Positions 3,367 through 14,214 of a stretch of 39,540 bases of DNA are shown one piece after another (positions within the stretch are counted from its first letter, which is position 1; every line of letters begins with the position of its first letter). This DNA comes from Lachnospiraceae bacterium (GTDB lineage: Bacteria; Bacillota; Clostridia; Lachnospirales; Lachnospiraceae): the NCBI GenBank assembly GCA_021769135.1, contig JAETTM010000039.1, positions 1-39,540 on the forward strand. The letters run 5' to 3'. Made by a program: the position numbers and the translations under genes. The notes under the pieces were generated by a model. That model saw nothing but the letters and a program-made list of their open reading frames with translations, searched no databases and was not told the DNA's origin.

Positions 3367-4154
3367 AAAATAATTTAAAATTTATATCAGAACTAATCAA
3401 ATTCAGATTATCCCATATCATGACATTCCGGCTGGGATTCTTTGCACCGTTTTTCATTAATACCAGCTATTTTCTGGTTCAGCTTTTCGCTTTCGAGGCA
3501 ATTTACGGACATGTGGACAGTATCCGAGGATGGGGGCATGGGGAAATCCTTATTTTTATTGGAACATTTTCTCTGATTGATGCCATGAACATGACCATTT
3601 GCTTTTTTGGGGTGATATCCATACCAGAGAAAATACAAACAGGAGAATTGGATTTATATCTGACCCAACCAGTGAATCCATTATTAAGGATTACCTTTGA
3701 AAAAGTAGATCCGGGCGCCATACCACTTCTGATATTCAGTGCCTATATCGTTGTATATGGGGTGAGAGAAAGTGGCGTGAATCTTTCGTATGCGAATATC
3801 ATTGGATATTTGTTTTTAGTTTTGCTAATGACCATACTGTACTACGATATGGAACTTCTGATACGGTGTTTTGCCTTCTTTGTGTTCTCAGTAGACAACC
3901 TGATGAAAATAGAGAATACGGCTGTGGATTTGTGTCTGAAAATACCGGGGATCGCTTTTTATGGAATCTATAAGTTTATTTTTTATTGTGTATTACCGTA
4001 CGGAATAATTGCAACGCTGCCAACGCAGGCAGTGATAGGGGCATTGTCGGCAAAAGGATTCCTTTTCGGGGTGGTAATCGTGTGCATTTTTACTTTTCTT
4101 GCGTTATCTTTTTGGGCATATGGAGTACACAGATATGAAAGTGCAAGTAGTTAG
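3363..4154 (+). CDS. ABC-2 exporter permease, second subunit
   Basis: A 263-residue membrane protein with about six hydrophobic helices, overlapping the previous gene by four bases (ATGA). The motif IPEKIQTGELDLYLTQPVNP after the second helix is the usual ABC-2 coupling-helix segment, in which a loop ends in L-x-x-P-x-N/S-P. With the ATPase and the first permease it should form a heteromeric exporter. No terminator is evident after the stop. The following 243 bases carry nothing recognisable. Confidence 0.83.
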   Translation: MKNNLKFISELIKFRLSHIMTFRLGFFAPFFINTSYFLVQLFAFEAIYGHVDSIRGWGHGEILIFIGTFSLIDAMNMTICFFGVISIPEKIQTGELDLYLTQPVNPLLRITFEKVDPGAIPLLIFSAYIVVYGVRESGVNLSYANIIGYLFLVLLMTILYYDMELLIRCFAFFVFSVDNLMKIENTAVDLCLKIPGIAFYGIYKFIFYCVLPYGIIATLPTQAVIGALSAKGFLFGVVIVCIFTFLALSFWAYGVHRYESASS

Positions 4155-4397
4155 AGTCTTGACTTGTATGGTGTGTTATGAATAATGTCATGTTTTGACT
4201 GAATCCTAGAATTGGTTTCAAAAAGAGACTAAAAGATATTATATTGGAATGCTTGAATTAAAAGGGGAGAATAACAATAAGATTGATAATGATTGAAAAT
4301 ATGAGATGCTTTTTGGGAATACTCTTTATACATGGTAGATTATGGAAAGTGGGATTGCATCGTAACAGATTGATCCAATGGCAGATTGCATTAGTAC

Positions 4398-4646
4398 ATG
4401 AGAAAGGATATAGGTAGGCATGAATGGTATAGCCTGCTACATGAGTTTGTAGGGGCGTTGGTTATTGACCGTGGGAATGGGATAGCGGTAGATACCTTGT
4501 ATATGGAATTGGTCGAGTTGTTCCCTTGGATATTTTCAGAGGATACGGCAGCAGTACAAGACCAATTAGAAAAGATATTGGATACATACAGGCAGGCAAG
4601 GAGGGAAAGGCGGATTGCAAAAGGTAGAAATGACAAAGGAGGATAG
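4398..4646 (+). CDS. Hypothetical protein at the left prophage edge
   Basis: 82 residues, rich in acidic and aromatic residues, ending with a basic stretch (RQARRERRIAKGR). I do not recognise a family. No Shine-Dalgarno is seen before ATG 4398 and there is a stop one codon upstream, so the protein may be the remaining part of a longer gene cut at the left end of the prophage remnant. It overlaps the next frame by 17 bases, as phage genes often do. The reading frame is clean, but whether it is expressed is unknown. Confidence 0.4.
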   Translation: MRKDIGRHEWYSLLHEFVGALVIDRGNGIAVDTLYMELVELFPWIFSEDTAAVQDQLEKILDTYRQARRERRIAKGRNDKGG

Positions 4647-4935
4647 GGGGTATTTCAAGAACGGAGTAAAAACCCTATGCGGTACGGAATTGATTCTTGC
4701 AACCAAGGTTATCAATGACCCGGACATAAAAAAGATGTTTACGCAAGGTGACCTTGATTTTATGAATAAGGAGTTAGGCAGGCGGGCAGGGGCGATATTT
4801 GCAGGGATACTAAGAGGGTTTAAGAAAAAGGACTTTGGGGCGGTTGGTTGCGGAGGAATTGCATATATCCGCATGGGAAGCAGAAAAGAACATCATATAT
4901 GCGAATATAGACAGCTTATCGGAAACATGGCTTGA
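4630..4935 (+). CDS. Hypothetical protein, apparently fused out of frame into tail protein I
   Basis: The frame from ATG 4630 (MTKEDRGYFKNG) gives 101 residues. The first 60 or so look like a real protein (helical, with RRAGAIFAGILRG), but the last 35 or so are read from DNA that encodes tail protein I in another frame. The natural sequence therefore seems to end near 4811-4835. I recognise no family. It is likely a gene fragment joined to the tail gene by deletion, or a frameshifted upstream part. Confidence 0.35.
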   Translation: MTKEDRGYFKNGVKTLCGTELILATKVINDPDIKKMFTQGDLDFMNKELGRRAGAIFAGILRGFKKKDFGAVGCGGIAYIRMGSRKEHHICEYRQLIGNMA

Positions 4936-5974
4936 CGTATTAGCCTATGATTTGCATGTGGATTGGTACGATTACGACTACCCGATAGAAGCAAAAAGGG
5001 CAATCATAAAGGACAGCGTAAGGGTACACCAAAAATTAGGAACTAAGGCAGCGGTAGAAAGGGCGTTAGGAGGGATACACCCACAGAGCGAAATTGAGGA
5101 ATGGTTTTCATACAACGGAAAGCCGTATTGTTTCCGTATAGTGCTTGATACCACAAATTCAAGGGTTGCAGCAGACTATGACGAGATTGTAAAGACGGTT
5201 GACATATACAAGCGTCTTACGGCTCATTTGGACGGATTATATTACCAATGCTCTATTTGCGTGGTAGTCATGCCACGCACGGAGTATTTTTTATTTTCTA
5301 CGCCTATGACAGGGCAGTTAAGGGCAGGCACAGAGCCGTACAGAAACACGGAGGGGGCGGTAGAAAATGCGGTTATCAGCATAAACGCAAGGGCAGCAGG
5401 GTATATAGCCGAAGCCGTGAGGACCGGAACGAAGCCGGACAGAAATATAGTGTTTTCTACGCAGGATAGCGGGATTGTGACCGATTCGGACACGAAAGGT
5501 TATCCGTTTATAAGTAATCAGACAGGGAAAGCCAAAGCAGGCACGACCCCTTACATAGATACCGTAGGCGGTGCAGGGAGTGAGGGAGTGACGGCAACGG
5601 CAGCAGGGCAGGGATATAAATTCTATTCCGATTTGGCAGGCACAAAGCCGGACAGAAATATTTTGTTTGATTCCGTGGACGTGCAGGCAGTAGGGGAAAC
5701 GGATTTAGAAGCCTATGTATTTGAAAATGCCTTTACAGGCACGAAGCCGAAAAGAAATATTGCATTTTCCGGGCAGACGGCAGAGGTTATAGCGGATTCC
5801 GATACCGAGGGGTACGGATACACAGCGCCGACAACGGGAAATGCAACCGCAGGCACAAAGCCGGACAGGGCCGTAGAAACGGCACAGGAGGTAAAGGGCA
5901 TAGCACAGACGGCAGACACCGACAGTTACCAATACGAGGTCAAGCGTTGCGGTGCTAATCGGTTAAGCAAATAA
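4835..5974 (+). CDS. Phage tail protein I (gpI-like), N-terminus probably lost, repeat-rich C-terminus
   Basis: Baseplate/tail protein I family: residues about 10-100 (WEAEKNIIYANIDSLSETW, then LDVLAYDLHVDWYDYDYPIE) are the diagnostic core. Homology-like sequence continues upstream in frame only to a stop at 4811-4813 (EGLRKRTLGRLVAEEL). The best available start is TTG 4835 with a poor ribosome site, so about 10-20 N-terminal residues seem to be missing. The C-terminal half carries six degenerate repeats built around AGT-K/E-P-D/Y-R-N and a Y-x-F motif. This extension is longer than in the classic P2 protein and may be a receptor-contact or fibre-linking part. It is followed closely by other tail genes. 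Confidence 0.75.
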   Translation: MGRLVAEELHISAWEAEKNIIYANIDSLSETWLDVLAYDLHVDWYDYDYPIEAKRAIIKDSVRVHQKLGTKAAVERALGGIHPQSEIEEWFSYNGKPYCFRIVLDTTNSRVAADYDEIVKTVDIYKRLTAHLDGLYYQCSICVVVMPRTEYFLFSTPMTGQLRAGTEPYRNTEGAVENAVISINARAAGYIAEAVRTGTKPDRNIVFSTQDSGIVTDSDTKGYPFISNQTGKAKAGTTPYIDTVGGAGSEGVTATAAGQGYKFYSDLAGTKPDRNILFDSVDVQAVGETDLEAYVFENAFTGTKPKRNIAFSGQTAEVIADSDTEGYGYTAPTTGNATAGTKPDRAVETAQEVKGIAQTADTDSYQYEVKRCGANRLSK

Positions 5975-5994
5975 ATGTAAAGGAGATTAAGGAA

Positions 5995-6300
5995 ATGCTT
6001 ACAGAAAGAGCCTTTGAGAGTTTCAAGAAATTCATTGAAACAAACATTGCATACGCAAAGGTCGAGTATGAGGGTGTGCTGCATAAAGCGGAGATTGTCA
6101 GCCGGGAACGCTTGCCGGACGGCAGGGTAGCACTAAGCATACCGATTACGCCGGAGGTATCGGGGGCCACCACGATAACCAAGATTCAGTTGTACGATAT
6201 TGGTAATAAGTTGTGGGCGGAGAAAACCGAAGCAATCAAGTTAAAAGGGGTGCAGCAGGGCGTACTGTACCGCTTTAGTTTCAACTTTAAGGAGGAATAG
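5995..6300 (+). CDS. Small phage tail-module protein
   Basis: 101 residues starting after AAGGAG (about 5979-5984). It is predominantly beta-strand in pattern (KVEYEGVLHKAEIVSRERL, RVALSIPITPEVSGATTITKIQLYD). Short proteins like this are found between tail protein I and the tail-fibre genes in clostridial myophages. Precise role unknown. The next gene starts five bases after its stop. Confidence 0.6.
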   Translation: MLTERAFESFKKFIETNIAYAKVEYEGVLHKAEIVSRERLPDGRVALSIPITPEVSGATTITKIQLYDIGNKLWAEKTEAIKLKGVQQGVLYRFSFNFKEE

Positions 6301-6305
6301 CGGAA

Positions 6306-6374
6306 ATGGGATTATTCAAGATTTGGAAAGACCATGTAACGCAGTTTAGCAAAACGTCTTTTACAATGGTATAA
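6306..6374 (+). pseudogene. Tail gene, 5' part, interrupted by the integrated element
   Basis: ATG 6306 follows GGAGGAATAGCGGAA and encodes MGLFKIWKDHVTQFSK, the usual start of a small clostridial phage tail protein. After codon 15 the frame runs into element DNA and stops at 6372-6374. The rest of the gene resumes at 13197. Joining 6306-6350 to 13197-13655 gives an uninterrupted 167-residue protein. Confidence 0.75.
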
Positions 6375-6375
6375 T
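6336..6375. other. attL of the element
   Basis: Target half-site GTAACG with flanking tail-gene codons, the shared core CAAA at 6350-6353, then the element arm ACAATGGTATAAT at 6363-6375. Boundaries are inferred by comparison with attR; the exact crossover bases within the core are not determined. Confidence 0.7.
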
Positions 6376-6390
6376 GCAAAGCAAAAATTT

Positions 6391-7872
6391 TTAGATTTTC
6401 CAGTGTATAATGCGCTCGGTACTGGTAGCCTCGATTTTGGAAATCAGCGTATCCACCACACGCCGCTTGTCGTCAAAACTAACCTCGTCCCAGTTTTTGA
6501 GATAGTCGGAAATGCTGTCAAGCTGAGAGGTTGAAACAGAATTAGCGGTGAGGTCGGCCACCAGCTTTAACTGCTTTTGACGTTCTGCATCCAATTCTTC
6601 AATGCGGTTATTGGCGTATTGCAACAAGAGAGGGTTTGCCCCGGTCAGCGTGTCAATCAGCTTTTCAATCTCGCTTTCGATTTTGGCGAGTTTGGCGCGG
6701 GCGGCGGTCAGCTTTGGATTATAGCTTTCCGCCTTGCCGCCCCTCAGCGTCTGAAATTCCCGCATTTTCTTTACCATTTCATCATACACCGATTTTTCCA
6801 GTTCCTGCCGTGTCAGCGTTCCGGGCCCCGGACAGCTTTTGTTTTCCATGCGCTGTTTACACCTCATGTACGTTACCCCGTTTGCGGCGTTCAGACTCAC
6901 TAAAGCATATCCGCAACACCCACACTTGATTTTCCCGGCCAGCCATGTATTATGGCATTTCCGGCCATTCTGAAACGTGGTATTTTGGGATAGCTTATGC
7001 TGGACGTTCAGCCAGAGCGCCGAGGGAATACGGCCCTTGTGGGGAGCGATAACAAGAATATTTTCCTCCCCCTCCCGGCCCTGGTATAAATAACAGCTAT
7101 AATCGCCCGTGAACAGTTCCGGGGGGCTTTCGATTTTTGCGCCCTGGGCTTTGAAGTGTTCGTAAATATCCATATCAGCCTGGACGTAAACCGGGTTCCG
7201 CAGGAGCTGCGCCAAAAATCCCCGTTTCAGCGTTTTCCCGTACACTTGAATTTCATTCTCGGTGAAATACCGGGTAATATCGCCGTAGGAAGTTTCGGGC
7301 TCCGCATACATTTCATACATCAATTCGGCGTATTCCATCTCGGCGGTTTCAATCAGCCGTTTTGTTTTGATACCGTCCATCACAATGGGCTCCGTATCAA
7401 AACCGTATGGAGCGCGGCCCCGCATATAGTAGCCCTTGGCACACCGGGAATAAAAGGCGTCCGTCACACGCATCTGGATGCTTTCCCGTTCAAGTTGGGC
7501 GAACACGATGCAGATATTGAGCATCGCCCGGCCCATCGGGGTTGACGTATCAAATTTTTCGGTGCAGGAAACAAACTCCACGTTGTACTGTTTGAACAGC
7601 TCCATCAGCTTTGCGAAGTCCACAATGGAGCGGCTGATCCTGTCCAGACGGTAGACAATCACCCGCCGGATAAGCCCGGTTTGAATGTCTTTCAAAAGCC
7701 GTTGGAAATCGGGCCGTTCAATGTTTTTGCCGGAGTACCCTTTATCCTTGTATTCTTTCGCCTCACCGCCCTTTAGTTCGTAGCGGCAAAATTCAAATTG
7801 ACTTTCAATGCTGATGCTGTCCTTTTTGTCAATCGATTGCCGCCCATAAATTGCATCTATTCTATTATCCAT
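6391..7872 (-). CDS. Large serine recombinase (site-specific integrase)
   Basis: 493 residues. Integrates and excises the element by serine-mediated strand exchange. The N-terminal resolvase domain (about 1-150) has the catalytic serine in YGRQS (S13) and the arginine-rich segment VIVYRLDRISRS. Then come a recombinase domain (about 170-270), a zinc ribbon (CGCC near 340 paired with two later cysteines in MRCKQ and KSCPG) and a C-terminal coiled coil (about 400-460). The start at 7872 (MDNRIDAIYG) is chosen because AAGGGAG lies seven bases upstream; the longer frame has no such site. It lies 17-40 bases from the left attachment site, as expected. Confidence 0.92.
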   Translation of the reverse strand: MDNRIDAIYGRQSIDKKDSISIESQFEFCRYELKGGEAKEYKDKGYSGKNIERPDFQRLLKDIQTGLIRRVIVYRLDRISRSIVDFAKLMELFKQYNVEFVSCTEKFDTSTPMGRAMLNICIVFAQLERESIQMRVTDAFYSRCAKGYYMRGRAPYGFDTEPIVMDGIKTKRLIETAEMEYAELMYEMYAEPETSYGDITRYFTENEIQVYGKTLKRGFLAQLLRNPVYVQADMDIYEHFKAQGAKIESPPELFTGDYSCYLYQGREGEENILVIAPHKGRIPSALWLNVQHKLSQNTTFQNGRKCHNTWLAGKIKCGCCGYALVSLNAANGVTYMRCKQRMENKSCPGPGTLTRQELEKSVYDEMVKKMREFQTLRGGKAESYNPKLTAARAKLAKIESEIEKLIDTLTGANPLLLQYANNRIEELDAERQKQLKLVADLTANSVSTSQLDSISDYLKNWDEVSFDDKRRVVDTLISKIEATSTERIIHWKI

Positions 7873-7914
7873 AATTAGCTCCCTTCCGTTAAACGGGAGC
7901 CAACCTACAATTAT

Positions 7915-7943
7915 ATTATACCTCGGGCGGCCCCATATCACAA
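7915..7943 (-). promoter_or_regulatory. Recombinase promoter
   Basis: On the minus strand TTGTGA (7938-7943), a 17-base spacer and TATAAT (7915-7920) stand about 45 bases before the recombinase start. This implies that the recombinase can be transcribed apart from the small gene upstream. Confidence 0.65.
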
Positions 7944-7956
7944 GGATGTTAATGGG

Positions 7957-8133
7957 TTACACGCGCTGTCCGACGTATTTGCTGAACACGTCAAACAGCT
8001 TTTGCTCTACCTCGCGTTTCCGCTGTTCCCGTTCTTTTGGGGGGAGAATAGGGGTGAGATTTTTGATGGTGATTGTCCGCTCTCCCATAACAACGGTTTT
8101 GACTTCGCTTTGATACTTTGGCTGTGTTTGCAT
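7957..8133 (-). CDS. Small basic protein next to the recombinase (possible directionality factor)
   Basis: 58 residues from ATG 8133, preceded by GGGAGGGAG; a longer frame to 8181 would run into a repeat hairpin and lacks a site. The sequence has a short beta-like half (EVKTVVMGERTITIKNLTPILPP) and a charged helix (KEREQRKREVEQKLFDVFSKYV). It resembles small conserved proteins encoded beside serine recombinases in clostridial mobile elements. Small partners of large serine integrases often switch them from integration to excision; that role here is inference. It ends about 85 bases before the recombinase start, with the recombinase promoter in between. Confidence 0.6.
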   Translation of the reverse strand: MQTQPKYQSEVKTVVMGERTITIKNLTPILPPKEREQRKREVEQKLFDVFSKYVGQRV

Positions 8134-8172
8134 GAACTCCCTCCCATTTCTTAAAATTTTGGCAGAAGAAAA

Positions 8173-8235
8173 GGGCGGCACTTTTTACAGTGTCGCCCTA
8201 TGGCCCGCCCCTACTTTGGGACATTTTGTCCCAAA
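8173..8235. repeat. Composite hairpin plus 21-bp palindrome, copy 1
   Basis: GGGCGGCACT (8173-8182) pairs with AGTGTCGCCC (8189-8198), one mismatch. The palindrome TTTGGGACA-N3-TGTCCCAAA follows at 8215-8235. It lies just upstream of the small recombinase-partner gene. Confidence 0.8.
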
Positions 8236-8273
8236 CTTGATAGGGACTATGTAGAAAATGCGCTCCTTTTTGG

Positions 8274-8443
8274 AAAAACCTCCCCTCACTAACCGAGACA
8301 TTTTTGGATGATTTTCGGACTGGCCCAGCGGAATTTTTTTCAAAATCCTTTTCATACCCGCCAGCTTGCTCGGCCGGGGCCGCCTGCTATTCAGTGACGG
8401 GAAAAACTTCCTCTCATATACCGAGACATTTTTTCATCATTTC
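8274..8443. repeat. Imperfect direct repeat of about 40 bp
   Basis: Two related blocks, near 8274-8316 and 8402-8443, share CCGAGACATTTTT exactly (8293-8305 and 8421-8433), with similar C/T-rich flanks. The 8182-8570 interval otherwise has only the palindromes; no gene is supported there. Confidence 0.55.
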
Positions 8444-8513
8444 CAAGTGGGGAAGTCGGAGAAAATTTTGATACGAGGCTTGTAGCAGGAGGGATGCCGC
8501 CTGGCATGGAAAT

Positions 8514-8566
8514 GGGGCGGCACTGTGAAAAGTACCGCCCCGGCTTTGGGACATTTTGTCCCAAAG
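8514..8566. repeat. Composite hairpin plus 21-bp palindrome, copy 2
   Basis: GGGGCGGCACT (8514-8524) pairs with AGTACCGCCCC (8531-8541), then the perfect palindrome at 8545-8565. It begins five bases beyond the stop codon of the XRE membrane regulator, so it could act as a transcript 3' end on the minus strand. Confidence 0.8.
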
Positions 8567-8570
8567 GGAT

Positions 8571-9155
8571 TTATTTTGTCAACTTGCGGTTCATAAATTT
8601 GGGGTTGATATACAACAGGTAAACAAAGGTGACAAGAAGTATCAAGGTAACTCCTACCAGCCCCCTCCCAGAATATATCGCAAGCAAAGACAGCAGGACT
8701 TGAATTACACAATACCCCAACTCTATGTTTATATTTTTCCTGCGTTGGTTCTTATCCGGCTCGAAACGGTGATTTGTTGTTACCCATGTGGAGCAAAGCA
8801 GCAACCCCACAAGAGAAAAGATAAATGACCATCGATAAACTGTATCATTGTTACGGAGCATATAAGCAAAATGGGCACTGCTACAAAGAAAAGCAGTCTG
8901 CCAGATAATAGCCAATTTGATTAAATTGGCTCGAAGAATTAAATTAGGGCCTTCCCGCTTTACAGCGTTCAACAATTCCTCAGATGGAATTTGATAAAGG
9001 TCTGCCAATGCTTTCAGATTTTTGGCGCTGGGTTTCGATTGTCCCAACTCCCATTTTGTCACAGCTTGACGGCTTATGCCCAGTTGTTCGGCCACAAGTT
9101 CTTGCGACATTCCTGCTCGATTGCGAGCGTCTTTTAGGTTATCATGTAAGGCCAT
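8571..9155 (-). CDS. XRE-family regulator fused to a four-helix membrane domain
   Basis: 194 residues. The N-terminal 65 are a classic Cro/CI helix-turn-helix (LKDARNRAGMSQELVAEQLG, then ISRQAVTKWELGQSKPS). The rest has four hydrophobic helices (about 76-100, 108-127, 146-165, 168-188). Membrane-anchored XRE proteins of this type sense envelope state or small ligands and control neighbouring genes; the target is unknown. AAAGGAG lies eight bases before the ATG. It has its own promoter and ends at palindrome copy 2, so it looks like a single-gene unit. Confidence 0.8.
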   Translation of the reverse strand: MALHDNLKDARNRAGMSQELVAEQLGISRQAVTKWELGQSKPSAKNLKALADLYQIPSEELLNAVKREGPNLILRANLIKLAIIWQTAFLCSSAHFAYMLRNNDTVYRWSFIFSLVGLLLCSTWVTTNHRFEPDKNQRRKNINIELGYCVIQVLLSLLAIYSGRGLVGVTLILLVTFVYLLYINPKFMNRKLTK

Positions 9156-9177
9156 ATCGTTATCTCCTTTCGGTCAT

Positions 9178-9207
9178 ACTATAAGCCTTTAAGTCCGCAA
9201 AAGTCAA
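9178..9207 (-). promoter_or_regulatory. Promoter of the XRE membrane regulator
   Basis: Minus strand: TTGACT (9202-9207), an 18-base spacer, TATAGT (9178-9183). It lies 23 bases before the start codon, giving a very short leader. Confidence 0.6.
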
Positions 9208-9253
9208 GCAACTATCCGGCAACTGTTGGCTACTTTCACGTTTTCTCTGGGAA

Positions 9254-9742
9254 TTAAGAATTATTTTTTGTTATTTCTGTTAAAGACAGTTGTAACTGGT
9301 ACACATTTTCCTTGCCGTCCCTATCTTTCGTAGTAAGCTCAAAATAGAGAATGTTTTTCAAATCACTTGTATCATCAATCTTTATTCTTCTAATTGCGCT
9401 GTCCCCCGATATTTGCCCTAAGTCACTGGAAACATTGACCGTATCTCCCGTCATGTCTACCACATTATTAGAAAGAATAACATCCTTTTTATCGCCAGAC
9501 ATAATGTAAAATGTGGTGGAGTACGATGTAATGTTATTGAAAAAATCATCAGTTACTTTCAAGTCGCCGCCAGTAAAGATTTCCTCTGTGCCATTCAAAA
9601 CAATAATGCCATTTGAAATTGAAAGCTGTTCATTCTCCCCACTGAAAGAATACACTGTTAGCTGTTCCTTTTCTACCTTTTCACATCCAACTAATGCCAA
9701 CATAAGTATTGTCAGAAAGACCAACACTTTCGATTTTATCAT
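9254..9742 (-). CDS. Small lipoprotein of unknown function
   Basis: 162 residues starting at ATG 9742 (GGGAGG eight bases upstream; TTG 9748 is less likely). A lipoprotein signal peptide ends in LALVGC, so it should be anchored outside the membrane after cleavage before the cysteine. The mature part is beta-rich and acidic (YSFSGENEQLSISNGIIVLNG) with no family I recognise. It sits between the XRE membrane regulator and the DUF2975 operon, on the same strand. Confidence 0.7.
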   Translation of the reverse strand: MIKSKVLVFLTILMLALVGCEKVEKEQLTVYSFSGENEQLSISNGIIVLNGTEEIFTGGDLKVTDDFFNNITSYSTTFYIMSGDKKDVILSNNVVDMTGDTVNVSSDLGQISGDSAIRRIKIDDTSDLKNILYFELTTKDRDGKENVYQLQLSLTEITKNNS

Positions 9743-9819
9743 ATTCAATGCCTCCCACTTTCTAAGTTGTCAATAGGCATTAGGTATATCACATTCCTGC
9801 CCAACAAAACCACCCCAGC

Positions 9820-9840
9820 TTTGGGACATTTTGTCTCAAA
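9820..9840. repeat. 21-bp palindrome, copy 3
   Basis: TTTGGGACA-N3-TGTCTCAAA, one change from the perfect palindrome. It begins ten bases beyond the stop of the YozG-like gene, at the end of the DUF2975 operon. Confidence 0.8.
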
Positions 9841-9849
9841 GTCGCATTT

Positions 9850-10059
9850 TTAATCTTCATCTTCGATATATTCAAGAATATCCCCAGGTTGGCACTTTAG
9901 AACTTTGCAGATTGCATCTAACGTACTGAACCGAACAGCTTTTACTTTTCCCGTTTTCAAGTAAGAGAGATTGACATTAGATATACCGACCTGGGCCGCC
10001 AAGTCATTAAGCCGCATTTTTCTGTCCGCCAGCACCCGGTCAAGCCGAATAATAATCAT
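9850..10059 (-). CDS. YozG-like helix-turn-helix regulator
   Basis: 69 residues, essentially one Cro/CI-type DNA-binding domain: IIIRLDRVLADRKMRLNDLA, then VGISNVNLSYLKTGK as helix-turn-helix. It overlaps the DUF2975 gene by four bases, so the two are translated together. The DUF2975 plus short XRE pair is a recurrent cassette (yoaS-yozG in Bacillus). It probably represses the operon through the long inverted repeat over its promoter. Confidence 0.82.
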   Translation of the reverse strand: MIIIRLDRVLADRKMRLNDLAAQVGISNVNLSYLKTGKVKAVRFSTLDAICKVLKCQPGDILEYIEDED

Positions 10060-10682
10060 AGCGTATGATCCACCTCGTCCTGCAAATGCACCCCATAATG
10101 GATGATGTATGCAGCTACAATAAAAGCGATGCTGGGGATAAGCATATTAAAGGTAGTCTGCCCTGTAGAAATGGACATTCGGCCATTAGATACGAGGTTG
10201 ATAAGCCAGCAAATCAACAGTTTGATAAATGGAACGAAAACAGCCACTGAGAATTGGAGTAACCCATAATAAAGCAAATAAGAGGAGTTTTGTTCTGTAA
10301 AAATTTCCCCTTTGTTTATATTGGCAAATACGCGGCTTAAAAACCAATAAGCAAAAATCATAGGAACAATATTGATGGCATACATGAAAGAAAGCCCTAT
10401 CTGAATTGTTGGGTCAATCCGGTCATTATCATTCGTCCATACATGAATATCATCGCCTGTATGAACAGTCATACTGCGAGAATGTGAATTGTGATTTTCC
10501 TCTGCGTAAATTGCCCGTTCAAAGGTTCCTGTTTTTGTATGCAGGAAAAAAGTTTGACGCCCCATAAAACTGAGAACAGTACATAAGACATAGAAACAGA
10601 TTGCAAAATAGCAAGCAAATTTCATTAACTGAGCGGCAGGTCTTGCAAACCGTTCATTTGCGAGTTTCTGAATGAATTTCAT
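10056..10682 (-). CDS. DUF2975 membrane protein
   Basis: 208 residues with four hydrophobic helices (about 18-40, 100-120, 135-160, 175-198) and a soluble loop after the first helix (residues about 45-95). This is the DUF2975 pattern seen in Bacillus YoaS. GAGGTGAT lies seven bases before the ATG at 10682. The protein is made with the short XRE regulator encoded next. The family's biochemical role is unknown; a membrane partner that modulates the regulator is a reasonable guess. Confidence 0.8.
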   Translation of the reverse strand: MKFIQKLANERFARPAAQLMKFACYFAICFYVLCTVLSFMGRQTFFLHTKTGTFERAIYAEENHNSHSRSMTVHTGDDIHVWTNDNDRIDPTIQIGLSFMYAINIVPMIFAYWFLSRVFANINKGEIFTEQNSSYLLYYGLLQFSVAVFVPFIKLLICWLINLVSNGRMSISTGQTTFNMLIPSIAFIVAAYIIHYGVHLQDEVDHTL

Positions 10683-10701
10683 AGTTTATCACCTCGGTCT
10701 T

Positions 10702-10730
10702 ATGATAGCAAAGAAATTCAAATATGTCAA
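10702..10730 (-). promoter_or_regulatory. Promoter of the DUF2975 operon
   Basis: Minus strand: perfect TTGACA (10725-10730), 17-base spacer, TATCAT (10702-10707). The -35 lies inside the long inverted repeat at 10720-10772. Confidence 0.75.
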
Positions 10731-10772
10731 TAATAATTTAATGTTTACCATTAAATTATTATTGACATATTT
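10720..10772. promoter_or_regulatory. 24-bp perfect inverted repeat, probable operator
   Basis: The arms at 10720-10743 and 10749-10772 are perfectly complementary around a five-base loop, and each holds a TTGACA facing outward. It covers the -35 of the DUF2975 operon, which suits autoregulation by the encoded XRE protein. Without a T tract a terminator role is unlikely. Confidence 0.75.
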
Positions 10773-10868
10773 TATCCAGAGGAAAACTCGCCACTATATC
10801 GCAAAGCCTACTGGTATGAACGCTATTATTTTGCTATTTTTGGGGGGAGTGCACAAACGGCAAGCAGG

Positions 10869-10974
10869 GCAAGTGTGGCCACACTTGCCATTTTTGACTG
10901 GCCGGGGGCCGTCAAAAATGCTTGTTGGGGAGCCTCCCCAAACCCGGCTCTTTGGGACAAAATGTCCCAAAGAG
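10869..10974. repeat. Array of four consecutive hairpins ending in palindrome copy 4
   Basis: GCAAGTGTGG/CCACACTTGC (10869-10888); CATTTTTGAC/GTCAAAAATG with inner GGCC/GGCC (10889-10920); TTGGGGAG/CTCCCCAA (10925-10941); CTCTTTGGGACA/TGTCCCAAAGAG (10948-10974). The last is the 21-bp palindrome in the opposite orientation to copies 1-3. The 10773-11147 gap contains no supported gene. Confidence 0.8.
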
Positions 10975-11078
10975 GTTGGCTGCGTCACCGCCGCTGTCGC
11001 GCCTGTTCCTTATTGTCCCGCCCGTCCATCAGTCCGGGCAAACGAGTGATGCTGCGGCCTACCATTGAGGGAAGAACC

Positions 11079-11130
11079 GGGACGGCACTATGAAAAGCGC
11101 CGTCCCAGCTTTGGGACATTTTGTCTCAAA
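11079..11130. repeat. Composite hairpin plus 21-bp palindrome, copy 5
   Basis: GGGACGGC (11079-11086) pairs with GCCGTCCC (11099-11106), then TTTGGGACA-N3-TGTCTCAAA at 11110-11130. It lies 17 bases beyond the stop of the lipoprotein gene that ends the PadR operon. Confidence 0.8.
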
Positions 11131-11147
11131 GATACAACTGCTATATA

Positions 11148-11582
11148 TCATTTTACAAAGGAAATATAAATTGTAAAACTGTTAGGAATATAGCTGATGC
11201 CCAATCCCTTTTCCCCATTAGATAAGAGCGTACCAACAGAAACATAATCTTGCCCTTTGATTTCCTCGGATGTATCCTCAATTACAGAAAAGCCTTCTTG
11301 TTTTAGGAGTTCCATATAGTCATTATAATCTGTTTCACTTATATTTACCAAATTGATACTGCAATTTTCGTGCTCCGTATCAAGTGCCGCCCAACTCACA
11401 GTTCCAGCGGGGATAGGAAGTCCATCAGTGTATGTATTTGTGGGCCATACGCCTTCGTCAAGCATAGTTATTTTGGGGGATTGAGCACTTTCATTTGCGT
11501 CTGTTGTCGCGGGTGGTGTGTCTTGAGAAGAACACGCCGACAAAATAATCATAGCTAATAAAACTAATACAACTTTTTTCAT
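11148..11582 (-). CDS. Small lipoprotein in the PadR operon
   Basis: 144 residues with a lipoprotein signal peptide ending LSAC (cysteine about residue 17), then a Thr/Ser/Pro-rich linker. The globular part contains VWPTNTYTDGLPIPAGTVSW and a segment NISETDYNDYMELLKQEGFSV, reminiscent of small extracytoplasmic domains in Gram-positive lipoproteins. I do not recognise a named family. AGGAGG precedes the start and it follows the HAAS gene by three bases, so it is third in the PadR operon. Confidence 0.7.
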   Translation of the reverse strand: MKKVVLVLLAMIILSACSSQDTPPATTDANESAQSPKITMLDEGVWPTNTYTDGLPIPAGTVSWAALDTEHENCSINLVNISETDYNDYMELLKQEGFSVIEDTSEEIKGQDYVSVGTLLSNGEKGLGISYIPNSFTIYISFVK

Positions 11583-11585
11583 AAG

Positions 11586-12050
11586 TTACCTCCTGCTGTT
11601 GTAAATGGTACGAATAATTTGGATTATAGCAATCACAATGGCGATTAGCCCAATTACTAACATTATTTTTGCGATGTCTATCCCCAAAACTCCCTCAACT
11701 TGAATATTTGTCATCGCATCCGCGGCTCCGATTGCATTATTCGGTGCCTTCCCAAATTGTGCGATAGTGAAAATTGAGAAAGCAACAACGGCAACAAGTA
11801 GAAAAATTACACTTGATATAATTCCTCGTTGTCTTTTTGGTGCGGTACTATTAGTGTCTAATTGTTCAATCGTATTTTTGACAAAATCGCTTGGAGTTCC
11901 TAAGCGTTCAATGACTTGTTGTTCCGTTTCGCCGTGTTCCAATGCAGAACCAAAAATTTCGTTTAGATCCCGTATGATTTCGTTTCTTTTTTTGTTTGAT
12001 AGACATAAGCCAAATTCTTTTTTGACCTGCTTTATATACCGCTCTTTCAT
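11586..12050 (-). CDS. HAAS-domain (DUF1700-like) membrane protein
   Basis: 154 residues. The N-terminal 70 (KQVKKEFGLCLSNKKRNEII, then the segment EQQVIERLGTPSDFVKN) match the HAAS/DUF1700 domain, which is almost always encoded beside PadR regulators. Two membrane helices follow (about 78-97 and 125-147). It overlaps the PadR gene by four bases. HAAS proteins are thought to act as membrane partners that tie PadR control to envelope signals; the signal here is unknown. Confidence 0.8.
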   Translation of the reverse strand: MKERYIKQVKKEFGLCLSNKKRNEIIRDLNEIFGSALEHGETEQQVIERLGTPSDFVKNTIEQLDTNSTAPKRQRGIISSVIFLLVAVVAFSIFTIAQFGKAPNNAIGAADAMTNIQVEGVLGIDIAKIMLVIGLIAIVIAIIQIIRTIYNSRR

Positions 12051-12406
12051 TCTACTACCTCCGCGTGTTGATAACTGTCTATAAAACTATTTACGCAATC
12101 CGTATAGTTCGCCCAAAATGAAATTAACTCATTCAAAATATCTGTTCCTTTTGGAGTAAGAGAATAGTATTTTTTTGAACCTCCATTAGCAGCGGCCGGA
12201 GCTAAACGGCATTGAATTAGTTCGGCCTCTTGCAAACGGTACAAAATTGGATAAATCGTCCCCTCTTTTGCATACCCCAAAACAGATGCTTTATCATTTA
12301 GTGCTGTAATAATTTCGTAGCCATAAGTTTCCTTGCATCCTATTAAGCATAGGAGCATCATTTCAAGAGAGCCTTTTTTGAATTGCTGAACATACCGATT
12401 ATCCAT
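12047..12406 (-). CDS. PadR-family transcriptional regulator
   Basis: 119 residues from ATG 12406 (AGGTGGGG upstream; a GTG at 12415 is less well placed). The PadR winged helix is clear: FKKGSLEMMLLCLIGCKETY, then GYEIITALNDK and EGTIYPILYRLQEAELIQCR, with the wing SKKYYSLTPKG. PadR proteins repress their own operon and are released by ligands or phenolic/antimicrobial stress. It heads an operon with a HAAS protein and a lipoprotein, behind a perfect palindrome that is the probable operator. Confidence 0.9.
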   Translation of the reverse strand: MDNRYVQQFKKGSLEMMLLCLIGCKETYGYEIITALNDKASVLGYAKEGTIYPILYRLQEAELIQCRLAPAAANGGSKKYYSLTPKGTDILNELISFWANYTDCVNSFIDSYQHAEVVE

Positions 12407-12421
12407 ATTCCCCACCTCTCA

Positions 12422-12460
12422 TTAGCCTTGCTATTTAGGTATACTAAATAGCAAGGCTAA
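12422..12460. promoter_or_regulatory. 17-bp perfect inverted repeat, probable PadR operator
   Basis: TTAGCCTTGCTATTTAG (12422-12438) and CTAAATAGCAAGGCTAA (12444-12460) are exact inverted copies around five bases. It sits between the -10 box and the PadR start, where a repressor would block transcription. An extra half-site AAATAGCAAGGC recurs at 12530-12541. Confidence 0.75.
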
Positions 12461-12488
12461 TTATACAGCCACCACAACAGAAAGTCAA
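12460..12488 (-). promoter_or_regulatory. Promoter of the PadR operon
   Basis: Minus strand: TTGACT (12483-12488), 17-base spacer, TATAAT (12460-12465). The operator palindrome begins at the -10 and extends downstream. Confidence 0.75.
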
Positions 12489-12544
12489 TAGCTCTACCCA
12501 AGATTAAAGACATTTTAATCATTGTATGCAAATAGCAAGGCCCC

Positions 12545-12578
12545 CCAAATCTGGCTCTTTGGGACAAAATGTCTCAAA
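12545..12578. repeat. 21-bp palindrome, copy 6, with shared flank
   Basis: TTTGGGACA-N3-TGTCTCAAA at 12558-12578. The bases before it (CCCAAATCTGGCTC) closely match those before copy 4 (CCCAAACCCGGCTC), so the repeat unit extends beyond the palindrome. Confidence 0.8.
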
Positions 12579-12755
12579 GTCCAGCCGCCCAATGTTAGCT
12601 TTTGTGGAACGAATAGGGCACAGGACATATAAACATACCACCCCCCTACTGAACGCGACCGGAAACCCTTGATACAAGCGGCTTTCAAACGCCTAAATGC
12701 TAACAGTCCAGCCGTGGAAAATAAGCGGTTTTACAGCGCGTTCAACCCTATCCCC

Positions 12756-12948
12756 CCGCCCTTTCCCATTCATGGGAAAGGGGGCGGCTCTGGAGGATAT
12801 ATCCCCCGCCGCGCCGGGAGGGGTAGCACAGCCGGGGCAGGCCGTCAAGGGCAAGCCGCCGCAAGCGGCGGTGCTACGCACCCTTGACTGCCCACTCCCG
12901 TCTGTGCTCAATAGTAGGCGGCGACGGGGGATATACCACCAGAGCCCC
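12756..12948. other. Highly structured 193-bp nested-hairpin element
   Basis: Nested pairings: CTTTCCCAT with ATGGGAAAG (12761-12780); GGCTCTGG plus GGATATATCCCCCG (12786-12808) with CGGGGGATATACC plus CCAGAG (12924-12944), imperfect; CGGGAG (12814-12819) with CTCCCG (12895-12900); GGGCAG and GTCAAGGG (12835-12851) with CCCTTGAC and CTGCCC (12881-12893); and CCGCCGC/GCGGCGG with a two-base loop (12856-12871). Short reading frames here have no coding character. It could be a structured RNA, a single-strand origin or a foldback repeat. The rest of 12580-12755 shows nothing recognisable. Confidence 0.65.
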
Positions 12949-12978
12949 TATGCAAAAATGCGCGGGGACAACGATAGC

Positions 12979-12999
12979 TTTGGGACAAAATGTCTCGAA
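12979..12999. repeat. 21-bp palindrome, copy 7
   Basis: TTTGGGACA-N3-TGTCTCGAA, two changes from the perfect form, at the right end of the element. Confidence 0.75.
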
Positions 13000-13032
13000 G
13001 TTACTGCGCGATAATTTGACTTTGCGGGTGGA

Positions 13033-13100
13033 ATGGCCGGGGTCTGCTGGGGGCCGCCTTGATAACCAAAACAGGGCGGCCCCCAGTAGACTCCGGCCAT
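13033..13100. repeat. 26-bp inverted repeat hairpin near the right end
   Basis: The arms at 13033-13058 and 13075-13100 match at 24 of 26 positions around a 16-base loop. No T tract follows, so it is not an ordinary terminator. Confidence 0.75.
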
Positions 13101-13110
13101 ATCGCAGAAA

Positions 13111-13147
13111 AAACCACCGCTTTGAGTTTCCCCAATAGCGGCGGTTT
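13111..13147. repeat. Hairpin AAACCACCGCT/AGCGGCGGTTT
   Basis: Eleven-base arms at 13111-13121 and 13137-13147, one mismatch, directly after the 26-bp hairpin and before attR. Confidence 0.6.
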
Positions 13148-13149
13148 CG

Positions 13150-13163
13150 TGTAGGTTGGCTCC
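13150..13163. repeat. 14-bp inverted copy of the recombinase leader
   Basis: TGTAGGTTGGCTCC here is the exact reverse complement of GGAGCCAACCTACA at 7896-7909, in the leader of the recombinase gene. It lies 20 bases inside the right attachment arm. Confidence 0.65.
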
Positions 13164-13182
13164 ATTCTTTAAGTGTCGTATT

Positions 13183-13214
13183 ATTATACCCTTGTCAAAT
13201 ACACTAACCGTTAC
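13183..13214. other. attR of the element
   Basis: Element arm ATTATACCCTTGT (13183-13195), core CAAA (13196-13199), then target half-site ending CGTTAC (13209-13214). The arm is the near-perfect inverted partner of the attL arm. Confidence 0.7.
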
Positions 13215-13655
13215 AAGGAAATCAACAACGCAGACGGCACGATAACCCATGAAGCGGTAGAGGGCGAGGTAATACAGGAGGGTACACCGCAGAACGCAAA
13301 GAATTTTAACGATATGGAGCAGCGTATTTTGGCAGCCGGGGAGGTTGCCGGACTTGCTATGTTAAAGGTCGGAGCGGTGGAAAGCAAGGTTGAGGGATTG
13401 GCAGGCGAGATTATCGAAACTACCTTAACCAATTCCAAAGAGTACCCTTTCAACAATTCCAAAAAAACCCTTGCACTCAAAACACCAAGGGGCAACTTGG
13501 ACTATACCGTATTCGTGGAATCAAGCACGGGGGACGCAGGCGGAATAGGGGAAATCAAAATAACCGATAAGCAGTTGAACGGTTTTAAGATTGAGTTTAC
13601 CGGGGCCGCCAAGGAAGTATCCGTAAAATGCACCGTACAGGGAGGTTACGCATAA
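13196..13655 (+). pseudogene. Tail gene, 3' part, separated from its start by the element
   Basis: This frame resumes the gene begun at 6306: after AAA 13197 come YTNRYKEINNADGTITHEAV and GEVIQEGTPQNAKNFNDMEQ, the usual second segment of this clostridial tail protein, followed by a beta-rich C-terminus. An open frame reaches back to TTG 13173 through element sequence, but the codons before 13196 are not phage-derived. In the present arrangement it has no proper start. Excision of the element would rebuild the gene in frame. Confidence 0.75.
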
Positions 13656-13831
13656 TGGCAAACGTGATTATCAAAAGTGCGGAAAGAAAGGCACAGACGG
13701 CAGCAGTATTAAACGCTTACGGCGTGGGCGGTGGCAGGGCGACCGCAGAACAGAGGGAAGCAGCCGAGCATATCGCAGTACGTTCCAATGAAGCGTACAA
13801 AGAATTACAGAGAATGGGAGGTAAAAGGTAA
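13655..13831 (+). CDS. Small phage tail-module protein
   Basis: 58 residues from ATG 13655, which overlaps the previous stop (TAATG) and follows GGAGG by nine bases. The sequence (MANVIIKSAERKAQTAAVLNAYG, then a helical REAAEHIAVRSNEAYKELQRMG) is not one whose function I know. Its place among tail genes with one-base overlaps indicates a phage structural or assembly gene. Confidence 0.55.
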   Translation: MANVIIKSAERKAQTAAVLNAYGVGGGRATAEQREAAEHIAVRSNEAYKELQRMGGKR

Positions 13832-14214
13832 TGGCAGCAGCAAAGATTATTGTAGTTGAGAAGAACGAGGGCGGGAAAATCCCTTATGAGGTATCGGGTA
13901 CGAAAATCATCTTTGGAGAAGATGAACTCATGGTAAATCTAAAAACCCGGCAGCGTGACTATGAAACAACGCTTGACATCTGCAAGGACAAGGAAAACGG
14001 CTTGACGGTTGGGGTCAATACGTCCTCTACGGAATATGTGGCACAGGTCACAATACCCGCCCGTGAATATGAGATTACGGATACAGGGAAGCAGGACGAG
14101 GACGGCAACCCGGTAATGGAGAAAAACCCGTTGGGGAAGATTCTGAAGAGGTATTGGCTACTGCGAGAAGAATGTTGGAATATCTCGCTAACAGAAGAAA
14201 TCCGTAACATTTAA
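13831..14214 (+). CDS. Phage tail-module protein with an altered C-terminus
   Basis: 127 residues, start overlapping the previous stop (TAATG). Residues 1-100 are a coherent beta-rich phage protein. After EKNPL (about 104) the frame changes character (GKILKRYWLLREECWNISL). The same DNA in another frame reads EDSEEVLATARRMLEYLANRRNP and then stops at 14211-14213, which looks like the authentic C-terminus of an unrelated protein. The gene is therefore probably truncated at the right end of the prophage remnant, near 14130. Confidence 0.55.
   Translation: MAAAKIIVVEKNEGGKIPYEVSGTKIIFGEDELMVNLKTRQRDYETTLDICKDKENGLTVGVNTSSTEYVAQVTIPAREYEITDTGKQDEDGNPVMEKNPLGKILKRYWLLREECWNISLTEEIRNI

Follow-up and report, generated by a model that had tools for sequence, protein, structure and literature searches.

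A small serine-recombinase element in a Lachnospiraceae prophage remnant, with palindromes most likely of the ParB-binding kind

The DNA analysed here, referred to as the window, comprises an entire contig (JAETTM010000039.1, assembly GCA_021769135.1; 39,540 bases) from a Lachnospiraceae bacterium, and it holds an integrated element of 6,855 bp that interrupts a gene of a prophage tail region. The element is probably a non-autonomous one that was inserted by a promiscuous serine recombinase, has ends of the type found in integrative and conjugative elements (ICEs), and carries palindromes that are likely to bind a ParB protein; recruitment of a ParB from a helper is possible. Genomes, contigs and loci that have to be told apart are given by handles (G, C and L numbers).

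The proposed course of events is as follows. A multi-targeting large serine recombinase would have inserted the element at AA in codon 16 of a tail-region gene; of the prophage to which this gene belongs, a remnant is left. Excision as a circle by the same recombinase would rejoin the gene, from which a prophage lacking most of its genes would presumably gain nothing. Most likely, ParB would bind the seven palindromes, as parS-like sites of the kind seen in ICEs. One of them appears to follow each cargo module, and many modules seem to have been exchanged or deleted at the palindromes. Their most likely role would be to draw in ParB from an ICE in the same cell, whether for stability or co-regulation, in the way that Salmonella genomic island 1 (SGI1) exploits IncC plasmids.

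Recombinase and ends of the element

A preliminary description of this DNA placed a serine recombinase at one end of a 6.85-kb insert, and both the Pfam domains and the length bear this out.

6391..7872, minus strand: large serine recombinase of 493 residues, with Pfam PF00239, PF07508 and PF13408 (Resolvase, Recombinase and Zn_ribbon_recom); phrog_95 integrase at 7e-92
6353..13207 (equivalently 6351-13205), no strand: integrated element of 6,855 bp, from end comparison with six complete relatives and natural empty sites
13150..13207, no strand: right end with att arm; motif GTGTAGGTTGGCTC...ATTAT.CC.TTGT common to the right ends of three B-type ICEs (type defined below) beside parB

A search for the element in other hosts was successful. 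The scan of genome contigs found the recombinase at 38 loci, and ends were compared by blast. Six complete relatives of the element are available. The complete set leaves out L016, to which the end pattern did not fit, and the right end was not located for L008, L009 and L034. The lengths of the complete elements are given below.

Window element: 6,855 bp
L006: 7,263 bp
L007: 6,401 bp
L010: 2,999 bp
L028: 3,784 bp, with ~100 bp of the recombinase gene absent
L030: 4,512 bp, with a shortened recombinase
L157: 9,371 bp

The right-end sequence ...CCCTTGTCAAA(T/C)AC(A/G)CTAA, which runs to 13207, is kept in L006, L007, L010, L011, L028 and L030, and the flanks all differ. Since the right end is conserved despite the differing flanks, the right-hand CAAA (13196-13199) lies inside the element. 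In the close group, AAAACGTC or a near match opens the left end; L009 deviates (TTAGTGTTCTTGAC) and was excluded from the left-end comparison. AA stands at both ends in all seven complete elements. The CAAA shared by the two junctions had been proposed as the crossover, and it is ruled out by the ends of the relatives and by the natural empty sites in two related phages (L069 and L070), which show AA; the crossover is AA (6351-6352 and 13206-13207). The circular junction had been rebuilt with 13-bp inverted arms. Inverted arms do occur at both ends, but that junction was cut 8-9 bp short, and about the AA centre 18 of 25 positions pair. A clean empty site together with a 2-bp overlap at both ends, the marks of a large-serine-recombinase element, are both present.

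Two further observations concern relatives of the recombinase. Two recombinase elements (L011:11386-11541 and L017:11504) have one short sequence (CACCCCATTTGTTAGACAG...) as a common neighbour, which may be where an insertion-sequence gene begins. A Campylobacter jejuni plasmid (L165, NZ_CP028186.1) carries a 59% identical recombinase beside genes annotated as a MobV relaxase and a replication initiator.

Palindromes in the element

The palindrome (A)CTTTGGGACA-NNN-TGTCCCAAAG(T), called the A type, occurs in seven copies in the element, after the cargo modules and at module seams. In the form TTTGGGACA-NNN-TGTCCCAAA, it is found seven times with at most three mismatches. None of the copies is assigned a strand.

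8213..8237: parS-like palindrome 1, 10/11 arm positions paired, before a small open reading frame (ORF)
8543..8567: parS-like palindrome 2, 10/11, 5 bp past the stop of the first cargo module
9818..9842: parS-like palindrome 3, 9/11, beside the stop of the second cargo module
10949..10973: parS-like palindrome 4, 11/11, within a conserved spacer
11108..11132: parS-like palindrome 5, 9/11, past the stop of the third cargo module
12556..12580: parS-like palindrome 6, 9/11, where the right-module homology with other elements starts
12977..13001: parS-like palindrome 7, the weakest, 8/11

Three copies lie 5-17 bp past the last stops of the modules (8571, 9850 and 11148), and two lie in the right module. 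A pattern search matches six of the seven palindromes and no other place in the window's genome. The same pattern was found in two of 398 genomes of the phylum, one of them the window's own, and in five IMG/VR stretches, two of which are elements of the same family and one of which (L154) is probably a chance match. In another stretch (L161, G291:C114), an A-type palindrome stands alone next to its GC-rich hairpin at ~9105-9151, and the other parts of the element are absent from this stretch.

The type of palindrome is specific to the lineage. The search for repeated palindromes in 15 further loci (together with L006 and L007) yielded a second form, TCTGGACA-NNN-TGTCCAGA (B type), in 3-6 copies in 10 of the 15. 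L023 carries the A type, L026 another palindrome type, and L025 a single A copy among B copies; no repeated palindromes were found in L018, L158 and L159. Across 29 of the 38 recombinase loci, copies of the A or B type number 75 on the recombinase side (233,154 bases) as against 3 on the opposite side (220,918 bases), all three in L023 close to a further stretch matching the element. The relatives carry 2 to 6 sites each, and the window element 7.

The palindromes coincide with the seams between modules. Among seven complete elements, 39 of 161 ends of homology blocks fall at a fitting palindrome edge (within 6 bp), compared to a mean of 1.9 and a maximum of 12 in 5,000 circular shifts; the block ends are not independent of each other, and the other 122 fall elsewhere. 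The clearest example is the pair L010 and L028, which are 99% identical except that L010 lacks the DNA between two L028 palindromes, as well as ~330 bp near the right end, and the seam in L010 shares the palindrome and little else. Such block ends would also be produced by a dedicated cassette recombinase, of the kind that acts at the sites of pdif modules and integron cassettes. That the palindromes are sites of such an enzyme is very improbable, as no second recombinase was seen among the ORFs and Pfam matches of the window element, and as the copies in ICEs are located inside parB, next to it, and among transfer genes.

Palindromes and ParB proteins

The location of the palindromes in ICEs, the covariation of their arms and their match to ParB clades, which has some exceptions, indicate that they are most likely ParB-class (parS-like) sites. 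The link comes from an ICE stretch (L162, from G028), which holds seven A-type sites, genes of a type IV secretion system (T4SS), and a ParB-domain protein of 499 residues (PF02195 at 7e-18; TIGR00180). Homologues of this ParB are found in 73 of 195 related genomes. Repeated palindromes of this form are present in seven of 21 parB stretches, namely L162 and 20 fetched ones; the seven are L162, L196 and L198-L202. In addition, L204, L214 and L215 have repeats of other forms, and L197, L203, L207, L208, L209 and L212 have single copies of a palindrome. In the control of one letter shuffle per parB stretch, no repeated palindromes appeared. Sites lie within 40 bp of parB in L162, L200, L202, L260-L263 and L267, among others.

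A palindrome is also found inside parB itself. Among 30 parB genes (L166-L195), 18 contain the palindrome ACTTC-xxxx-CAANTTG-xxxx-GAAGT in one and the same loop with 9-11 of 11 pairs, and the second-best palindromes in the same 18 genes reach 7-9 pairs. It is mostly in frame as TSxQ(V/L/I)xxK (e.g. L181:1882-1906), and the variable loop is shorter in parB genes without it. The arms covary in 15 distinct loop sites, with 55 of 60 variable cells paired as against a mean of 26.7 and a maximum of 43 when the right arms are redealt, in a count that uses sites picked by their palindrome score. Since these loop sites were selected for pairing, their constant place and architecture are the stronger argument.

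The specificity of the sites appears to track the ParB clade largely. Stretches with an A-type ParB (L162, L264, L265 and L266) have A sites in 17 of 17 cases, those with a B-type ParB (L260-L263) have B sites in 22 of 25, and those with a C-type ParB (L198-L202) have C sites in 21 of 24. A stricter site filter yields fewer sites, with 2 each in L264 and L265 and 0 in L266. As the A and C types differ by one base per arm, single A counts in the C stretches are half-site variants. L197 and L203 have one C site each, and L204 has none. At the recombinase loci, the close group (L006, L007, L010, L028, L030, L034 and L157) has A sites in 28 of 28 cases, the window element in 7 of 7, and eleven group-B loci have B sites in 53 of 55. 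Ten short-ParB stretches hold one such site in total, a tally from which L215 was left out. The clades are few, and this comparison of class with clade consists of correspondingly few independent cases.

The genome of the window also has B-class palindromes of its own, at G000:C149:49155 and 50562 and at G000:C80:956, near two parB-like genes of another clade.

The sites may instead be operators, the ParB of the ICEs being mainly a regulator of transcription of ICE and cargo genes in the manner of KorB. KorB of RP4 is a ParB-family protein that binds dispersed palindromes. Two of the seven L162 sites (1507 and 3665) lie, by eye, just upstream of Shine-Dalgarno-like sequences, and an excerpt of PMC10954446 gives 12 palindromic operators bound by RP4 KorB. 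We consider this explanation unlikely, since in the window three sites come after a module's final gene and, with promoters unmapped, no site was observed at the promoter of a module.

Probable origin from ICEs and possible helper

The palindromes are one of several features that the window element shares with ICEs. The recombinase and parB occur on one contig in three group-B elements, and the distance from the recombinase end to the parB-side end is ~22.9 kb in L015/L260, 26.7 kb in L024/L261 and 43.1 kb in L019/L262. The parB-side end lies ~225 bp from parB and carries the GTGTAGGTTGGCTC ... ATTATGCC.TTGTA of the right end of the window element; L263 is uninformative for this motif, as the stretch examined lay within parB. 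T4SS genes are present in L260 and L261. Moreover, a noncoding module near the right end of the element has homologues beside parB.

12739..12958, no strand: hairpin-rich noncoding module, beside parB in eight of nine ICE stretches (82-93% identity; alignment with 85% mean column identity)

The exception is L266, which lacks this homologue. The window element thus unites both ends of an ICE with the recombinase, the sites and this module, and it is best read as a stripped-down ICE derivative with parS-like sites. In the hairpin module, RNAalifold predicts 59 pairs, with double changes in 2 of the 59; it could be an origin of transfer (oriT), part of a centromere, or an RNA. The inverted repeat at 13034-13099 resembles Rfam EBv-sisRNA-2 at 37.6 bits, below the gathering threshold of 41.8, and was set aside as a chance likeness of a GC-rich hairpin.

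A possible helper is present in some of the host genomes. An A-type ParB occurs in the genomes of L006 (95% identity), L028 (94%) and L008 (partial, 89% over residues 3-301), with A-type sites on the same contigs. No A-type ParB of at least 89% was found in the genomes of L007, L009, L010 and L034 or in that of the window.

Several observations weigh against ParB-binding sites of ICE origin that recruit a helper. Apart from the selection of the loop sites mentioned above, an alignment-based covariation count on unselected sites is passed by one sequence only, the loop being gapped in the alignment. The A-type parB itself has no loop palindrome; it carries a degenerate site internally, and a single site stands immediately downstream of the gene. 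The match of class to clade is broken by L267, whose ParB is 59% identical to the A type and which holds three A sites and one B site; by L196, whose ParB is 56% identical to the A type and which holds two A sites (the A sites of L196 and L267 are GGGACA); and by L215, the short-ParB stretch of another clade in the window's genome, which holds two B-class sites. The A-type ICEs L162, L264 and L265 show no recombinase end arm beside parB, and no parent bearing A-type sites has therefore come to light. The genome of the window has no A-type ParB, its two matches being 43-44% identical, and no helper is therefore visible there. A ParB of at least 89% is present in only two of the five genomes with A-type sites at the recombinase locus (L006, L007, L010, L028 and L034), or in three of the seven with a close-group recombinase if L008 and L009 are counted, whose loci show no A-type site. 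Compared to one of 195 relatives at >60%, namely G028, the source of the query, these counts give p = 1e-4 for three of seven and p = 1.5e-3 for two of five, values limited by shared habitat and draft assemblies.

The sites may also be relics of an ICE that shrank by deletion, which may still bind ParB with no advantage to the element, the shuffling of modules being due to short homologies only. The ends, the hairpin module and the sites are indeed common to ICEs, the deletion in L010 removed exactly the DNA between two palindromes at a seam that shares little else, and the helper ParB is missing in three of the five genomes and in that of the window. On the other hand, the sites are near-perfect despite different cargo and follow the modules, and their class matches the ParB clade of the ICEs in two host genomes. 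We regard this as a possible explanation, short of an even chance. A wider proposal, also tentative and rather doubtful, is that of a satellite family of gut Clostridia, in which helper-matched arrays of parS type, with one site behind every cargo module, would make the elements passengers of an ICE ParB system and serve as seams for the gain and loss of modules.

Interrupted gene and choice of target

The window shows, from left to right, host genes resembling those of ABC transporters (a label read from the ORFs alone), phage tail genes (4835-6350), the insert, tail-region genes (13206-14133), and an operon resembling those of sugar transport.

6306..6352, plus strand: 5' piece of the tail-region gene, codons 1-15, and the left AA overlap (6351-6352); start as in the uninterrupted genes of L069 and L070
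13206..13655, plus strand: 3' piece of the tail-region gene, opening with the right AA overlap (13206-13207); phrog_9010, function unknown; 164-residue ORF in L070
4835..6300, plus strand: phage remnant genes left of the insertion, a baseplate gene short at its start (4835-5974) and a full-length gene of 101 residues (5995-6300)
13628..14133, plus strand: phage remnant genes right of the insertion; homology to the phage stops within the second gene

Among the relatives of the 3' piece in IMG/VR (best 80 of 87 loci kept), the search for an intact form of the gene led to L069 and L070, which carry it uninterrupted, as an ORF of 164 residues in L070, at 99% protein identity. The natural empty site in both is ...CAGTTTAGC-AA-CCGTTACAAGG. 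Their flanks are close to those of the window, with DNA identities of 96.6% over 1,518 bp on the left and 97.3% over 928 bp on the right for L070, and of 99.1% over 448 bp and 95.1% over 927 bp, respectively, for L069. The preliminary description had joined halves at 6306-6350 and 13197-13655. The insert does split one phage gene after codon 15, but the 3' piece begins at 13206. The natural empty sites show an overlap of 2 bp, and the uninterrupted homologues differ from the proposed join, having the AA site and being 9 bp shorter; the rebuilt protein of 167 residues is three codons too long. As the error was 9 bp, that join stayed in frame, and the open frame is weak evidence.

The description of the surroundings as a prophage remnant holds. 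Homology to L070 opens 84 nt into its baseplate ORF (window 4835) and stops at 14133 within a small gene, so that the prophage is truncated on both sides. No other phage genes were recognised in the ORF lists of the contig, save ORFs at 4398-4935 without a PHROG match. Among 16 genomes in the genus, the tail gene was found in one, that of the window. In L070, the DNA past the tail gene (4002-5726) includes two stretches encoding similar sequences (RGSSF..., VGFRSA), which we take to resemble the variable and template repeats of a diversity-generating retroelement.

The interrupted gene had been likened to those split by the skin, SP-beta and comK elements, with a switch for tail production in view. 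Excision would then turn on tail production, as in programmed interruptions of the skin, comK prophage or fdxN-element type. The exact uninterrupted form of the gene is held by related phages, and among NCBIfam models the recombinase scores best, although below threshold, with that of XisF, which excises the fdxN element (135.9 bits; cut-off 375). However, no two of the seven complete close-group elements, that of the window included, share their flanks, which means that there is no dedicated site in this tail gene. No conserved attachment site in the interrupted gene was found, and excision would not restore a gene of a working system, the neighbouring phage genes being truncated on both sides; the restriction of the tail gene to one genome of the genus likewise speaks against a switch. 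With different targets and a truncated remnant, the switch reading is unsupported and we consider it extremely improbable. The insertion stands as an event of a promiscuous element and not as a developmental switch. Nor is a preference of the element for phages as targets supported.

Cargo and noncoding spacer

The genes between the recombinase and the right module are all on the minus strand.

7957..8181, minus strand: small ORF (58-74 residues) directly upstream of the recombinase, also in L006 and L008, no family match
8571..9748, minus strand: cargo module 1, XRE-type regulator with a longer C-terminal part (8571-9155) and a 164-residue protein without family match (9254-9748)
9850..10682, minus strand: cargo module 2, HTH_26 regulator (9850-10059) and DUF2975 protein (10056-10682)
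11148..12415, minus strand: cargo module 3, PadR regulator (12047-12415), HAAS-domain protein (11586-12050) and DUF6591 protein (11148-11582)

Each of the three modules has its own regulator according to Pfam. The cargo of the relatives includes a zf-HC2 protein with FtsX/ABC exporter genes (L006), a Penicillinase_R/M56 pair resembling BlaI/BlaR1 (L007), and a VanZ-like protein (L030). No Pfam match to a relaxase or T4SS component was found among nine scanned ORFs of the window element, and tblastn of three ParB proteins against the window, the 38 genome loci and five others gave no match at 1e-3, with parB of the group-B loci lying outside the stretch fetched for that search. The group-B relatives L015 and L017 encode a relaxase. 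The conserved spacer at 10850-11013 has several hairpins and, in L015 and L017, overlaps and extends past the end of the relaxase gene; an oriT role of this spacer was considered and not adopted.

Comparison with known systems

The part that appears to be new is the arrays of predicted parS-type sites, which sequence comparison supports. They point to a seemingly undescribed class of parS-like sites in clostridial ICEs, placed in frame in the variable loop of parB as well as throughout the elements, and small elements carry such sites without the ParB protein. Among the titles listed in one literature library, none besides the SGI1 work dealt with parS sites in such ICEs, and the palindrome string led to one unrelated paper. 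If binding is true, partition hijacking of the SGI1 type would become testable in gut Firmicutes, and the ICEs would offer pairs of ParB and site with differing specificity.

The operators of RP4 KorB resemble the palindromes of the window in being dispersed, and differ in sequence and host; ParB binding in the present case is predicted.

Judged by its sequence, the insertion is a new example of the known multi-targeting recombinase elements. Like the large serine recombinases of the multi-targeting clade (TndX-like subfamily, Cp36) in an excerpt of PMC10083194, the element relies on one recombinase and a 2-bp overlap, and its relatives have different targets. Close relatives in more than three targets, which mark such a recombinase, are seen here as seven different flanks, the count being made by flanking sequence. 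In contrast to the recombinases in that excerpt, the window element has AA as overlap, is small with variable cargo, and has no DUF4368 (no Pfam match at E 0.01). According to the same excerpt, DUF4368 is found in 63% of the clade and is not required.

Tn4451-type clostridial elements, described in part in PMC5704250, also combine a serine recombinase, very short direct repeats and clostridial hosts. They carry mobilisation genes, whereas none were found in the window element.

SGI1 is similar in being integrated, in lacking a ParB of its own, and in carrying palindromes that match the sites of a larger conjugative element (PMC10954446, in excerpt). The same excerpt reports two sites in SGI1, with ParB binding and stabilisation proven, whereas the window element has seven sites, belongs to Clostridia, uses a serine recombinase, and would bind ParB by prediction.

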